Positions 5,245-34,567 of a stretch of DNA of 64,000 bases are shown here, piece by piece (the first letter of the stretch is position 1; the number at the start of each line of letters is the position of its first letter). Origin of the DNA: Lachnospiraceae bacterium NK4A144 (GTDB lineage: Bacteria; Bacillota; Clostridia; Lachnospirales; Lachnospiraceae); the NCBI GenBank assembly GCA_000424365.1, contig AUJT01000016.1:1-64000 (forward strand), written 5' to 3'. A program made the translations under genes and the position numbers. Under the pieces are notes generated by a model. That model had not been told where the DNA came from. It was given only the letters and a program-made list of their open reading frames with translations, and did not search any database.

Positions 5245-6915
5245 ATGGAAAACACAGAAGAATCCAGGAATTTTATCGAGAGGGAAATCGATAAAAACCT
5301 TGCAGACGGCGTTTATGATACGGTACATACACGTTTCCCTCCGGAACCGAATGGATACCTTCATATCGGACATGCAAAGTCTATAGTACTTAATTCAGGC
5401 ATTGCAAAGCAGTACGGAGGAAAATTCAATCTTCGTTTTGATGACACTAATCCGACAAAGGAAAAATCCGAATTTGTCGAGTCCATAAAGAATGACGTAG
5501 CATGGCTCGGAGCAGACTGGGAAGACCGCCTTTTCTTTGCATCAGATTACTTTGATCAGATGTATGAATATGCTGTAAAGCTCATAAAGAAGGGAAAGGC
5601 TTATGTATCTGATCTCAATGCAGAGCAGATACGCGAGTACCGTGGTTCTCTTACAGAACCCGGAAAGGACGATCCAAACAGAAATCGTCCTATAGAAGAA
5701 AGTCTGCAGATGTTTGAGGATATGAAGGCAGGAAAGTATGAGGACGGAAGTCTCGTACTCAGAGCAAAGATCGATATGGCGAGCCCGAATATCAACATGC
5801 GTGATCCGATCATCTACAGGATCGCACATCTTACACATCAGAATACAGGCGATAAGTGGTGCATCTACCCTATGTACGATTTCGCACATCCTCTTGAGGA
5901 TGCTATCGAGGGAATCACACATTCCCTTTGTACACTGGAGTTTGAGGATCACAGACCTCTTTATAACTGGGTTGTAGAGGAATGTGAATTTGCACACCCG
6001 CCGAGACAGATCGAGTTTGCAAAGCTCTACCTGAATAATGTGGTAACAGGTAAGCGTTATATTAAAAAGCTTGTAGAGGACGGTATTGTAGACGGATGGG
6101 ATGATCCGAGACTTGTTTCTATCGCAGGTCTTCGCCGCCGCGGTTATACACCGGACTCTATCCGCAAATTTGTTGAGCTCTGTGGTATTTCAAAGTCACA
6201 GTCTACTGCAGAGATGGATATGCTCGAGTATTGCATCAGAGAGGATCTGAAGCCGAAGGCAAAGAGACAGATGGCTGTACTTAATCCACTGAAGCTCATT
6301 ATCGATAACTATCCCGAGGGACAGTCAGAGCTTCTGGATGCGGTTAATAATCCTGAGAATGAAGAACTCGGAAGCCGCCAGATCTCCTTTAGCCGTGAGC
6401 TCTGGATCGAGCAGGATGACTTTATGGAAGAACCGCCGAAGAAATATTTCAGACTCTTCCCGGGAAATGAAGTTCGTCTCATGAATGCTTATTTCGTAAA
6501 GTGTGTTGGATGCGATAAGGACGAAGAGGGAAATGTCATCGCAGTACACTGCACCTACGATCCGGCAACCAAGCAGGGACCGGATTTTAAGGCTGATCGC
6601 AAGGTAAAGGGAACCATCCACTGGGTAAATGCAGCGGATGCGGTCAAGGTGACAGCAAGACTTTACGAAAATATCGTGGATGAGGAAAAGGGCGTATATG
6701 ACGAAGAGGGAAACGTCAACGTTAATCCTAATTCACTGACTGTATGTGAGTGTTATGTTGAACCTGCTCTCGCAGAGGCAAAGCCTTATGAGAGTTTCCA
6801 GTTTGTACGTAATGGTTTCTTCTGTGCAGACTGTAAGGATTCAAAGCCGGGCGCACCGGTATTTAACCGGATCGTTTCATTAAAGAGCTCTTTCAAGATG
6901 CCGGTTAATAAATAA
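5245..6915 (+). CDS. glnS: Glutaminyl-tRNA synthetase
   Basis: 556 residues, the usual length. It charges tRNA-Gln with glutamine in the cytoplasm. The class I signature lies near residue 35 ([15 protein letters not shown]), followed by the FDDTNP motif that binds the amino acid and acceptor stem. The long [19 protein letters not shown] segment and CIREDL match GlnRS rather than GluRS. The KMSKS loop reads [10 protein letters not shown], a variant I associate with clostridial GlnRS. The C-terminal beta-barrel anticodon domain is present through to [13 protein letters not shown] 5245 follows ACAGGAGAA. Single-gene transcription from the promoter at 5163 is likely. Confidence 0.95.
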
Positions 6916-6981
6916 GGAGTTGGGGGATAACGGATGCCGAAGGATGGCATCCGGAGTGTAAAGTTAGGAGGTTAAGTTAAT

Positions 6982-7842
6982 ATGGGACTGTTTGACGGAA
7001 TGGACCAGATGGGTCTGAAGAAGATTTCACAGGAAGATCTTTTTAAGGCTGATGAGCCTGCTAAGAAGGGAGCTCCTGCGGCTGCAGAAGTCAAAGCTAA
7101 GCCGGCTGTTACAGAAGAAAACTATCTCCTGGAACGAACCATGGATTGTCCTGTCTGCGGTTCGAAGTTCAAGGCTAAAGCTGTTAAGAGCGGACGAGTA
7201 CGAAGGATCGGTCAGGATAAAGACCTTCGTCCTCGTTTCGAGCAGATGGATACTTTAAAGTATGATGTAGTTGTTTGTCCGGAATGCGGCTATGCTGCAA
7301 TGACCCGTGATTTCAAGAATATCATGGAGCCTCAGAAGAAGCTGGTGCTTGAAAATATCAAGCCGGGTTTCAAATATGAGGAACCCGGAAGCATTTATTC
7401 ATATGATGATGCGATAAAGAGATACCAGATCGCGCTTGTAAATGCCATGACCTGTGGAAGAAAAGATTCTGAAAAGGCATATCTGTGCCTGAAGATGGGC
7501 TGGGTCATCAGAGGTAAGGGCGAGAGTCTTGATAAAGAAGCTGAGGACTATGAAGCACAGTTGAAGAAGTGCAACGATGACGAAAATGAAGCTCTGAAAC
7601 TTGCGTATGAAGGATTTAAGACAGCCCGCATGAAGGAAGAATTCCCGATGGCAGGAATGGAACAGACTACGTTTGATTATGTGCTATCTGTTTTATGTAT
7701 GAGATTTGAAGATTACCTTAATGCAGCAAAATTGGTTTCAGGTATTATAGGCAGCAGAGTTGCCGGTCCGAAGATAAAGGATATGGCTCGCGACCTGAAG
7801 GAAGAGATTATAGAACACCAGAAGGCAAAAGAAGAAGGCTAA
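6982..7842 (+). CDS. DUF2225 zinc-ribbon protein
   Basis: 286-residue cytoplasmic protein. After a flexible Ala/Lys-rich start, two CxxC pairs (DCPVCGSKF near residue 53 and CPECGYAAMTRDF near residue 98) form a probable zinc ribbon. The remaining two thirds are helical and TPR-like (YQIALVNAMTCGRKDSEKAYLCLKMGW). This is the DUF2225 architecture; the function of the family is not established. AGGAGG at 6967-6972 defines the start. In the 66-bp gap after glnS, GGATGCC/GGCATCC forms a 7-bp stem without a T-run, so glnS read-through into this gene is possible. Confidence 0.82.
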   Translation: MGLFDGMDQMGLKKISQEDLFKADEPAKKGAPAAAEVKAKPAVTEENYLLERTMDCPVCGSKFKAKAVKSGRVRRIGQDKDLRPRFEQMDTLKYDVVVCPECGYAAMTRDFKNIMEPQKKLVLENIKPGFKYEEPGSIYSYDDAIKRYQIALVNAMTCGRKDSEKAYLCLKMGWVIRGKGESLDKEAEDYEAQLKKCNDDENEALKLAYEGFKTARMKEEFPMAGMEQTTFDYVLSVLCMRFEDYLNAAKLVSGIIGSRVAGPKIKDMARDLKEEIIEHQKAKEEG

Positions 7843-7860
7843 CAGTCTGAAACATAATTA

Positions 7861-7892
7861 AAAGCCCGTGCTTCGTAAGAGGCACGGGCTTT
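7861..7892. terminator. Bidirectional terminator
   Basis: AAAGCCCGTGC (7861-7871) pairs perfectly with GCACGGGCTTT (7882-7892). It lies between the converging DUF2225 gene and the small membrane protein gene at 7931-8293. Confidence 0.85.
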
Positions 7893-7930
7893 ATTGCGGT
7901 GCGCCTAGCGACGCGGATATTTGTTATTTT

Positions 7931-8293
7931 TTATTCCTCTTCTGAGTCAAAGCTTGAGAAGCTGAAAGTTGAAAACTTGTCGGAAGAAGGATCCTTCTCG
8001 ACATTGTTTTCTGCAGGCTTTGCTGTTTCGCCGATGATCTTGTCTTCTGTGGAAGCTGTCTCAACAGTTTCCTTTGAGAAGTTGAGCGGTACATACTCAC
8101 GCTTTGCAGCAGGAGATACGTCCTTTGCCTCTGCTTCGCTCTTAAGGAATTCCTCAAGATCATCATTTACATCGCGGTCGGAATCTTCAAAGGAATCTTC
8201 GTTATCGCGTTCTTTCAGGTAATAATATGTTCCTGCGGCAGCAGCGCCTGCAAGAAGTGCAAATGTAATTAATCTACCGAGTTTTTTCATCAT
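7931..8293 (-). CDS. Small membrane-anchored hypothetical protein
   Basis: 120 residues. The start (ATGATG at 8293) follows AGAGGGA on the minus strand. Residues 5-25 (LGRLITFALLAGAAAAGTYYYL) form a single membrane span. The rest is hydrophilic and acidic, with clusters such as DNEDSFEDSDRDVNDDLEEF and a Ser/Asp/Glu-rich end. A basic MMKK start suggests the acidic tail lies outside. No family recognised. The low-complexity tail suggests a disordered linker rather than an enzyme. It is transcribed divergently from the PPIase lipoprotein gene. Confidence 0.65.
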   Translation of the reverse strand: MMKKLGRLITFALLAGAAAAGTYYYLKERDNEDSFEDSDRDVNDDLEEFLKSEAEAKDVSPAAKREYVPLNFSKETVETASTEDKIIGETAKPAENNVEKDPSSDKFSTFSFSSFDSEEE

Positions 8294-33317: not shown

Positions 33318-34406
33318 TTATGCTGCGTTTTCGAGTTCTTCATCTTCTTCGTCATAGCCATAAGGTATGCCCTTTTTGTTGAGCATAGGAGCGAGCTTGT
33401 TATAGACTTCCTCAGGTTTTGTTCCAAAGGAGAAAACAACTGCACTATTGATGATCCTGCCTGTTTCCAGCTCTCTTGCTACGTTTCGTGCCATACTGAC
33501 ATTTTCTTCGCAGGGAACGAACTTTGCTCTTACGTTATATCCTGCATCTTCAAAAGGTTTGATATAGGTTTCCATAAGGGAATCGTAATCATCGGCAACC
33601 AGAGGGATGATCACGTTGGTTCCTTTCAGCTCTCCTTCAGTAAAGGTTTTTATTGCCTTGTCCATGATCATAACGCTTTCCATGTGAACGGCGTCAGCAG
33701 CACATCCGTGAGATTCCTTATATTCAGGTATCAGTTCCTTTATGACATCGCAATCAAGGATGAAAGACTGTGATTCTTCGCTGTCAGGATCGGTAACTTG
33801 GGTGGATTTTCCGGAAGCGGGGAGACCAAGTACCAGTTCCATCTCAAAGTTTTTCTTAAGAGGACCGTCGTAAACGTATTTTGCGCGTCCGGTGTCCGGA
33901 TCTGTGCTCTCGGTTCTGGCAGAACCTATTGTGAGAAATTCATTTAAGACATCTTCGCGAATCTGGTTACGTTCCGGAGTATCGATCTCGGAGGTCTTTC
34001 CGTAAAGTGCGATATAGTACGCAGAAAGAGAATCGATCTGCGCGACCACAGGGTGGGCCTTAAGCTCCTCAAGTGACGGATAGTCTTCGGATTTTATGCG
34101 GTCATAGAGTTCTTTCGCTTCGTCGGTCTCTATGATCAGGTGCTCGGATGAGGGTTCCCATGTTACGGGAACCGCGCCCTCAACAAGTAAACTTTCAGGT
34201 GACTCGTCGGATGCGGTACTTTCGGATGCTGCGCTTGCTTCAGTGGCTGCAGCAGTGTCCTGAACCTCGACGGCAGCAGTGCTTTCTACTGCTTCGGCAG
34301 CGGTTGTGCTCTGCGTGACATCTGAGGCAGGTGCTGAGCTTCGGCAGCCTGTGAGGATCATTATTGCTGATATTGTGACACAAAGTGATTTGATTTTTTT
34401 ACTCAT
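33318..34406 (-). CDS. Lipoprotein with zeta-toxin-like kinase domain
   Basis: 362 residues. Residues 1-21 are a lipoprotein signal peptide (basic start, hydrophobic core, lipobox LTGC, Cys21). Residues 22-75 are a Thr/Ser/Ala/Glu-rich linker. A helical part (90-185) leads to a P-loop kinase: ELVLGLPASGKST (Walker A about 194-202), FILDCDVIKELIPEYKE with the two acidic residues of the zeta active site, GTNVIIPLVADDYDSL, then MARNVARELETGR with candidate arginines. This follows the zeta-toxin/AAA-33 family, cytoplasmic kinases known to phosphorylate UDP-GlcNAc in the case of zeta. Export of such a kinase is unexpected. No epsilon antitoxin gene is next to it. Confidence 0.78.
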   Translation of the reverse strand: MSKKIKSLCVTISAIMILTGCRSSAPASDVTQSTTAAEAVESTAAVEVQDTAAATEASAASESTASDESPESLLVEGAVPVTWEPSSEHLIIETDEAKELYDRIKSEDYPSLEELKAHPVVAQIDSLSAYYIALYGKTSEIDTPERNQIREDVLNEFLTIGSARTESTDPDTGRAKYVYDGPLKKNFEMELVLGLPASGKSTQVTDPDSEESQSFILDCDVIKELIPEYKESHGCAADAVHMESVMIMDKAIKTFTEGELKGTNVIIPLVADDYDSLMETYIKPFEDAGYNVRAKFVPCEENVSMARNVARELETGRIINSAVVFSFGTKPEEVYNKLAPMLNKKGIPYGYDEEDEELENAA

Positions 34407-34567
34407 TGTTTTCCCCCTCGTGATTATTGTTAACGTTATTATTTATCGGCTTTGGATATTCAAAAATTTAGAGGTCATAGACAATGATGTAAGAAACGGC
34501 TGTGGGTCTTTTTTTAAACAATTTTCCTCAAATCTGTCTCTTATTTGTTAAAGGCTATCAGCCGATG

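Follow-up and report, generated by a model that had tools for sequence, protein, structure and literature searches.

Zeta-fold kinases have so far been described as intracellular toxins, plus the injected effector AvrRxo1. The toxins zeta and PezT, of the epsilon-zeta and PezAT modules (PF06414; structures 1gvn, 3q8x and 2p5t), phosphorylate the N-acetylglucosamine (GlcNAc) part of uridine diphosphate N-acetylglucosamine (UDP-GlcNAc; PMC3062530), and AvrRxo1 (4z8t family), a kinase with a zeta-like fold, is reported to produce 3'-NADP (PMC5087710). Here we analysed a kinase gene in a stretch of 64,000 nucleotides from Lachnospiraceae bacterium NK4A144 (contig AUJT01000016.1; the whole stretch is called the window below). 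The gene lies on the minus strand at 33318..34406 and encodes an exported lipoprotein of 362 amino acids (aa) with a zeta/PezT-fold kinase domain. On balance, it appears to be a surface-anchored phosphotransferase acting in extracellular nucleotide chemistry, and not a toxin. An earlier note on this DNA had offered three options: a contact-dependent toxin, a kinase of an extracellular substrate, or a catalytically dead binding protein. The kinase of an extracellular substrate proved the best supported, by the varied export routes, the intact and constrained site and the linkage to ecto-5'-nucleotidases, and the other two lost ground.

Fold and catalytic site of the window kinase

The Pfam profile Zeta_toxin (PF06414) matched residues 190-320 with 38.3 bits (cut-off 22.3). 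This match alone is weak evidence, because the profile also scored above its cut-off on unrelated P-loop proteins in the same bacterial family; it matched many P-loop proteins of ~450 aa that resemble Ffh-type GTPases and was unusable as a census tool. A sequence search of the PDB with the window protein gave no close match, only a spurious one to L7Ae or K3. The AlphaFold2 model of residues 74-362, computed with 18 family sequences as input, had a mean predicted local distance difference test score (pLDDT) of 92.4, and Foldseek placed zeta toxin at the top rank for it. In VIA-align, zeta (1gvn) headed the list with Z 13.0 over 187 residues at 3.3 Å, followed by PezT (2p5t, Z 12.9), UDP-GlcNAc-bound zeta (3q8x, Z 12.9) and AvrRxo1 (Z 11.7), with polynucleotide kinases below AvrRxo1 at Z about 10-11. 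Judged on the predicted structure, this comparison settles the zeta/PezT-fold identity of the domain. The profile match, the fold and the equivalents of zeta K46, D67, R158 and, probably, R171 together place the protein in the zeta/PezT kinase-fold family, bearing out the zeta-like domain that had been proposed from the sequence; GLPASGKST, DCD and PEY (residues 227-229) are all present.

Zeta residue numbers were carried over through L035, a canonical relative that can be aligned to 1gvn and 2p5t (K46 = K200, D67 = D220, R158 = R311), and the E116/T118 position was located by a gapless count from L035 up to a shared AGY. We take R317 to be the equivalent of zeta R171. The gene runs from an ATG at 34404-34406 to a stop at 33318, with the following features:

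33318..34406, minus strand: coding sequence of the 362-aa exported lipoprotein with zeta/PezT-fold kinase domain (open reading frame, Pfam, fold)
33357..33848, minus strand: P-loop kinase core, residues 187-350 (AlphaFold2 model, fold comparison)
33456..33488, minus strand: LID arginines R307, R311 (zeta R158) and R317 (likely zeta R171)
33597..33605, minus strand: P268-L269-V270, replacing zeta E116-G-T118 (mapping via L035)
33747..33755, minus strand: D218-C219-D220, with D220 at the zeta catalytic base D67; both aspartates in 18 of 18 sequences
33801..33827, minus strand: Walker A GLPASGKST, residues 194-202, with K200 at zeta K46 (K200 in 18 of 18; numbering via L035)
33849..34172, minus strand: conserved helical pre-domain and β-hairpin, residues 79-186, partly common to mobile-element relatives
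34173..34343, minus strand: low-complexity Ser/Thr/Ala/Glu linker, residues 22-78 (end approximate), under weak constraint (sequence, substitution rates)
34344..34406, minus strand: signal peptide and lipobox LTGC with Cys21 (sequence, signal test)
34413..34419, minus strand: ribosome-binding site GAGGGGG, ~8 nt upstream of the export-start ATG
34423..34424, no strand: junction of a clean ~1,830-bp indel, where the relatives L013 and L028 have a 5'-nucleotidase gene (alignment)

K200, D218, D220, K223, P227, E228, H241, E243, R307 and R311 were invariant in all 18 aligned sequences, so the loss of the Walker lysine and acidic residues in homologues, named beforehand as evidence against a kinase, was not seen. 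Among the window, L013 and L028, the ratio of nonsynonymous to synonymous substitution rates (dN/dS) was 0.08-0.10 (about 0.09) in residues 79-362; the signal peptide and linker gave 0.36-0.57. The invariant catalytic residues and the domain dN/dS therefore disfavour a dead relic in the window lineage, and a pseudogene or dead domain was rejected on these grounds; read from the sequence, the phosphotransfer site is apparently intact and under strong purifying selection. The dead binding protein of the earlier note is disfavoured likewise (K200, D220 and R311 being invariant), yet a subset of relatives lacks a zeta-essential arginine.

In zeta, K46, D67, E116, R158 and R171 are essential, E100 and T128 are partly dispensable, and E116 has been proposed to hold Mg2+ (PMC6356619); Asp67 touches the 3'-OH of UDP-GlcNAc and Thr118 its β-phosphate (PMC3062530). 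At the E116/T118 site L035 keeps the canonical (D/E)-x-(S/T); the window kinase has P268-L269-V270, and position 268 was P in 16 and Q in 2 of the 18 sequences. The window kinase thus lacks both E116 and T118, which mark the UDP-GlcNAc type of zeta toxin. A P-x-V-G type motif is common to it and the mobile-element relatives L011, L031 and L034. Since the phosphotransfer residues are kept and the UDP-sugar contacts are not, the protein probably works like a zeta-fold kinase but not as a UDP-GlcNAc kinase, and UDP-GlcNAc is a doubtful substrate. There is also no evidence of toxicity inside the cell, because the UDP-GlcNAc contact residues of zeta are not conserved; the suggestion that export serves as self-protection presupposes toxicity and fell away.

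The window kinase shares with zeta and PezT the fold (Z about 13), the Walker A lysine, the catalytic aspartate and the LID arginines. Unlike them, it is exported and surface anchored, has no antitoxin, carries P268 and V270 for E116 and T118, and has an extra N-terminal helical and hairpin region. It is a zeta-fold kinase by fold and catalytic residues, and not a zeta toxin by antitoxin, location or UDP-sugar contacts. AvrRxo1 resembles it in having a zeta-like fold (Z 11.7) and in acting outside the producing cell, but is an injected effector with a partner protein, whereas the window kinase is a Sec/lipoprotein surface protein of rumen bacteria; structural identity between them is ~16%.

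Export and anchoring across the family

Orthologues with ~94% identity to the window kinase were found in two genomes of the same genus, and the gene was present in 4 of the 48 genomes of that genus. More distant members (domain identity 53-70%) came from Lachnospiraceae and Oscillospiraceae (Ruminococcus, Ruminiclostridium), many of them of rumen origin by record title. The genus of Ruminococcus YE71, searched as well, gave no further members, and matches in G010, G016 and G026 were dropped because they covered only the signal and linker.

All 19 members read start with an export signal, and an RBS-like (ribosome-binding site) sequence precedes the start codon. In a hydrophobicity/charge test, which is our own heuristic and not SignalP, 19/19 family members scored as exported versus 0/29 PF06414-matching controls, most of which resemble Ffh-type GTPases and are only partly zeta-like. 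Residues 1-21 of the window protein are MSKKIKSLCVTISAIMILTGC, with the n-region, h-region and Cys-bearing lipobox of a bacterial lipoprotein, the lipobox being a textbook consensus. Sequence, RBS and signal test thus confirmed the exported lipoprotein that the earlier note had read from LTGC, Cys21 and the Ser/Thr/Ala linker.

The mode of anchoring varied. A lipobox anchor was present in the window, L013-L017, L019, L028 and L029; in L018, L020 and L021 a plain signal peptide precedes an additional N-terminal domain, and L024 has a signal peptide with two extra N-terminal repeats. L025 (Pfam 45.7 bits) and L054 (by eye) end in a C-terminal LysM, L026 has an N-terminal membrane helix, and L022 and L023 carry a secreted 5'-nucleotidase in front and an NPxTG sortase-type tail. 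On the family tree these architectures amount to at least seven state changes, the mobile-element outgroup state counted. Because the mode of outside anchoring differs among members, an error in the start site is ruled out as the explanation of export. A start-codon artefact was rejected, with export signals at RBS-supported starts in 19/19 members and varied anchors; relatives start at the export signal, and not further downstream as a cytoplasmic protein would.

The extra exported N-terminal domains had no Pfam match (L018 1712-3022, L020 7563-8867 and L021 7563-8867, ~90 aa; L024 7029-8858, a duplicated ~140-aa unit). Genome G1108 has two kinase versions, the N-domain form (L020) and an additional LysM-tailed family copy (L054, C87); L025 is also LysM-tailed. 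Giant secreted proteins are encoded directly upstream of the kinase gene in L017 (103-7821) and L029 (354-7646), and the one in L017 has Calx-beta, CARDB and dockerin domains.

Linkage to secreted 5'-nucleotidases

Directly upstream of the kinase gene in L013 and L028, on the same strand and across a gap of ~23 bp, lies a gene for a lipoprotein with PF00149 and PF02872. The same type of nucleotidase gene was found directly upstream in L018 (a copy called from its middle only, at a contig edge), immediately downstream in L015, where the product has a PKTG-type tail of its own, and ~6 kb downstream in L020. In L022 and L023 the nucleotidase is fused in front of the kinase; in the model of the L022 fusion the domains fold and their arrangement is uncertain (pLDDT 77.8, predicted template modelling score 0.58). 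The partner genes have the features of UshA-type ecto-5'-nucleotidases, namely PF00149 with PF02872, dimetal motifs and export. They matched UshA, Nt5e and CD73-like 5'-nucleotidases better than CpdB 3'-nucleotidases (PDB and NCBIfam), with none above curated equivalog cut-offs; the name of PF02872 does not fix nucleotidase specificity (PMC10454023). The nucleotidase, whether partner or fused, is of one kind with cell-wall or periplasmic ecto-5'-nucleotidases such as UshA, Nt5e, AdsA and CD73-like enzymes, whose motifs and sortase-type anchoring it shares; a kinase domain, as in the L022 and L023 fusions, is not mentioned in a review of these enzymes (PMC10454023). The open-access literature yielded no account of exported proteins with a zeta domain or of a zeta/5'-nucleotidase protein, which is no proof of absence.

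Kinase-bearing genomes had 0-2 PF02872-type genes each, and 14 of the 18 had any. Four independent neighbour or fusion arrangements among 14 genomes with 2,000-3,500 genes would have a chance probability of ~1e-9, an estimate that assumes independence, an assumption eased by counting L013 with L028 and L022 with L023 once each.

The window has no nucleotidase gene beside its kinase. Compared with L028 (MC2017; 6152-7983) and L013, a ~1,830-bp indel removes just the upstream 5'-nucleotidase gene, and the window and L028 align at 93.6% and 93.9% on its two sides. At the junction, which lies between two RBS-like G-rich stretches, the kinase RBS now follows sequence that in the relatives precedes the nucleotidase gene. 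Loss from the window, as opposed to insertion in the relatives, seems the simpler reading, because the kinase-nucleotidase pair recurs elsewhere. The window genome keeps another 5'-nucleotidase lipoprotein, 58% identical (L056 3951-5882, in G000 C32); this gene lies upstream of an apparent MoxR/von Willebrand-type gene cluster.

Origin and candidate functions

The nearest non-exported relatives of the kinase were mobile-element proteins (20-33% identity). L034 is the zeta-like domain of a protein of 2,459 aa that also contains LPD38 and ddrB-ParB domains and showed no export signal, and the neighbourhood of L011 and L012 includes an M23 peptidase, a topoisomerase and a CD1107-like mobile element gene. 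These polyvalent domains share with the window kinase the P-x-V-G motif and a similar pre-kinase region (TPER.xLR) but sit in giant proteins in which an export signal was not seen. At L079 (1747-9129) and L080, such zeta-like kinase domains lie within large polyvalent proteins and neighbouring mobile-element genes. The exported members formed one side of the tree versus the mobile-element relatives (99/97), with long outgroup branches, and a single origin from the mobile-element pool is plausible on this sequence evidence. Scans of viral contigs and a plasmid search found no relative of the window kinase, and a phage search gave only a 28% match in the head-protein gene of cyanophage PSS2. Recent horizontal cargo was rejected, since the flanking synteny is common to the window, L013 and L028.

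The window kinase gene is flanked by what we take, from sequence, to be a convergent nitroreductase-like gene and a divergent methyl-accepting chemotaxis gene, in agreement with the earlier observation that no epsilon-like antitoxin is adjacent. A promoter and terminator scan of the locus gave nothing above chance level.

Export would follow the Sec/lipoprotein route, with Cys21 and the flexible linker keeping the protein at the outer membrane face. There it would most likely bind an environmental nucleoside triphosphate as phosphate donor (ATP or a similar compound, which lysed rumen microbes, for instance, could supply) and pass the phosphate to a small molecule outside the cell, the probable acceptors being nucleotides, nucleosides or nucleotide conjugates, while an exported UshA/CD73-type 5'-nucleotidase would work alongside and dephosphorylate the same pool. 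From these lines of evidence we infer extracellular enzymatic activity, along with the donor, the class of acceptor and the biological benefit. Several points weigh against such a role. Extracellular ATP is scarce compared with the cytoplasm, one pool worked on by both a kinase and a phosphatase could mean a futile cycle unless the two act at different positions, and adjacency in the genome would be no proof of a common substrate. In 12 of the 18 genomes, among them that of the window, the nucleotidase does not adjoin the kinase, and four of the 18 have no detectable PF02872 gene. R317 is present in 14 of 18 sequences, including the window's, and replaced by Q in L017, L019, L024 and L029. These four read GGQ where other members have TGR, and the likely counterpart R171 is essential in zeta; on the family tree L024 did not join the other three firmly.

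The loss of the likely R171 equivalent in those relatives, and proline in nearly all clade members at zeta E116, the proposed Mg2+ holder, would suit a protein that binds or senses nucleotides and catalyses little or nothing, such as a surface ATP receptor. Yet K200, D220, R307 and R311 are invariant in 18/18, beyond the expected demand of binding alone, and P-x-V-G also occurs in mobile-element relatives, so it may be an alternative active-site design and not decay; we regard a mere sensor as distinctly unlikely. An envelope-modifying kinase, whose target on the outer face would be a sugar in the wall, in teichoic acid or in a lipid-linked precursor, would bring zeta chemistry on N-acetylglucosamine to the surface. 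The action of zeta and PezT on the GlcNAc part of UDP-GlcNAc and the wall anchoring of several members through LysM or a sortase motif speak for it, but anchoring merely places the protein, the contact positions E116/T118 are P/V, and what recurs beside the kinase is a nucleotidase and no wall enzyme, which makes this role unlikely. The nucleotidase linkage would also be left unexplained by an enzyme that shields the cell, phosphorylating and inactivating an external antimicrobial (a nucleoside antibiotic, a chloramphenicol-like compound or other) at the surface. Such a role fits the surface location and the patchy distribution (4/48 genus genomes), and drug-modifying enzymes exist among the broad P-loop kinase class; no conspicuous resistance gene or biosynthetic cluster was seen in the flanks examined, which were not annotated gene by gene, and we consider it quite improbable.

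A toxin for neighbours, contact-delivered or released, has the least support among the readings and is very improbable. The fold is that of toxin kinases, and large polyvalent proteins of mobile elements contain related zeta-like domains. However, the marks of polymorphic or contact-dependent toxins (a delivery or processing domain, a variable C-terminal toxin, an immunity gene) were not found in the architectures or neighbours, the C-terminal domain being conserved; the producer anchors the kinase in its own wall or membrane by several routes, and the UDP-sugar contacts of zeta are missing. The contact-dependent toxin of the earlier note thus found no support. A toxin-antitoxin module was rejected as well, the antitoxin and cytoplasmic location of epsilon-zeta and PezAT being absent; no conserved small antitoxin-like neighbour was seen across 17 loci (open reading frames of at least 90 aa).

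An extracellular nucleotide-directed kinase thus remains our preferred reading of the window gene. More tentatively, the family may represent a new ecto-kinase/ecto-nucleotidase system of rumen Lachnospiraceae and Oscillospiraceae, in which a zeta-fold kinase derived from mobile elements was exported, variously anchored and set to ATP-dependent phosphorylation of small molecules outside the cell together with a 5'-nucleotidase. The fusion to the nucleotidase is a concrete lead toward the substrate, and an annotation as 'zeta toxin family' need not mean a toxin-antitoxin system. Extracellular use of ATP by bacterial enzymes is rarely considered. If this is true, gut bacteria would carry out kinase chemistry on small molecules outside the cell through a chromosomal family of surface kinases fused to ecto-5'-nucleotidase, which would bear on the fate of nucleotides, nicotinamide adenine dinucleotide (NAD) and nucleotide sugars in the rumen.
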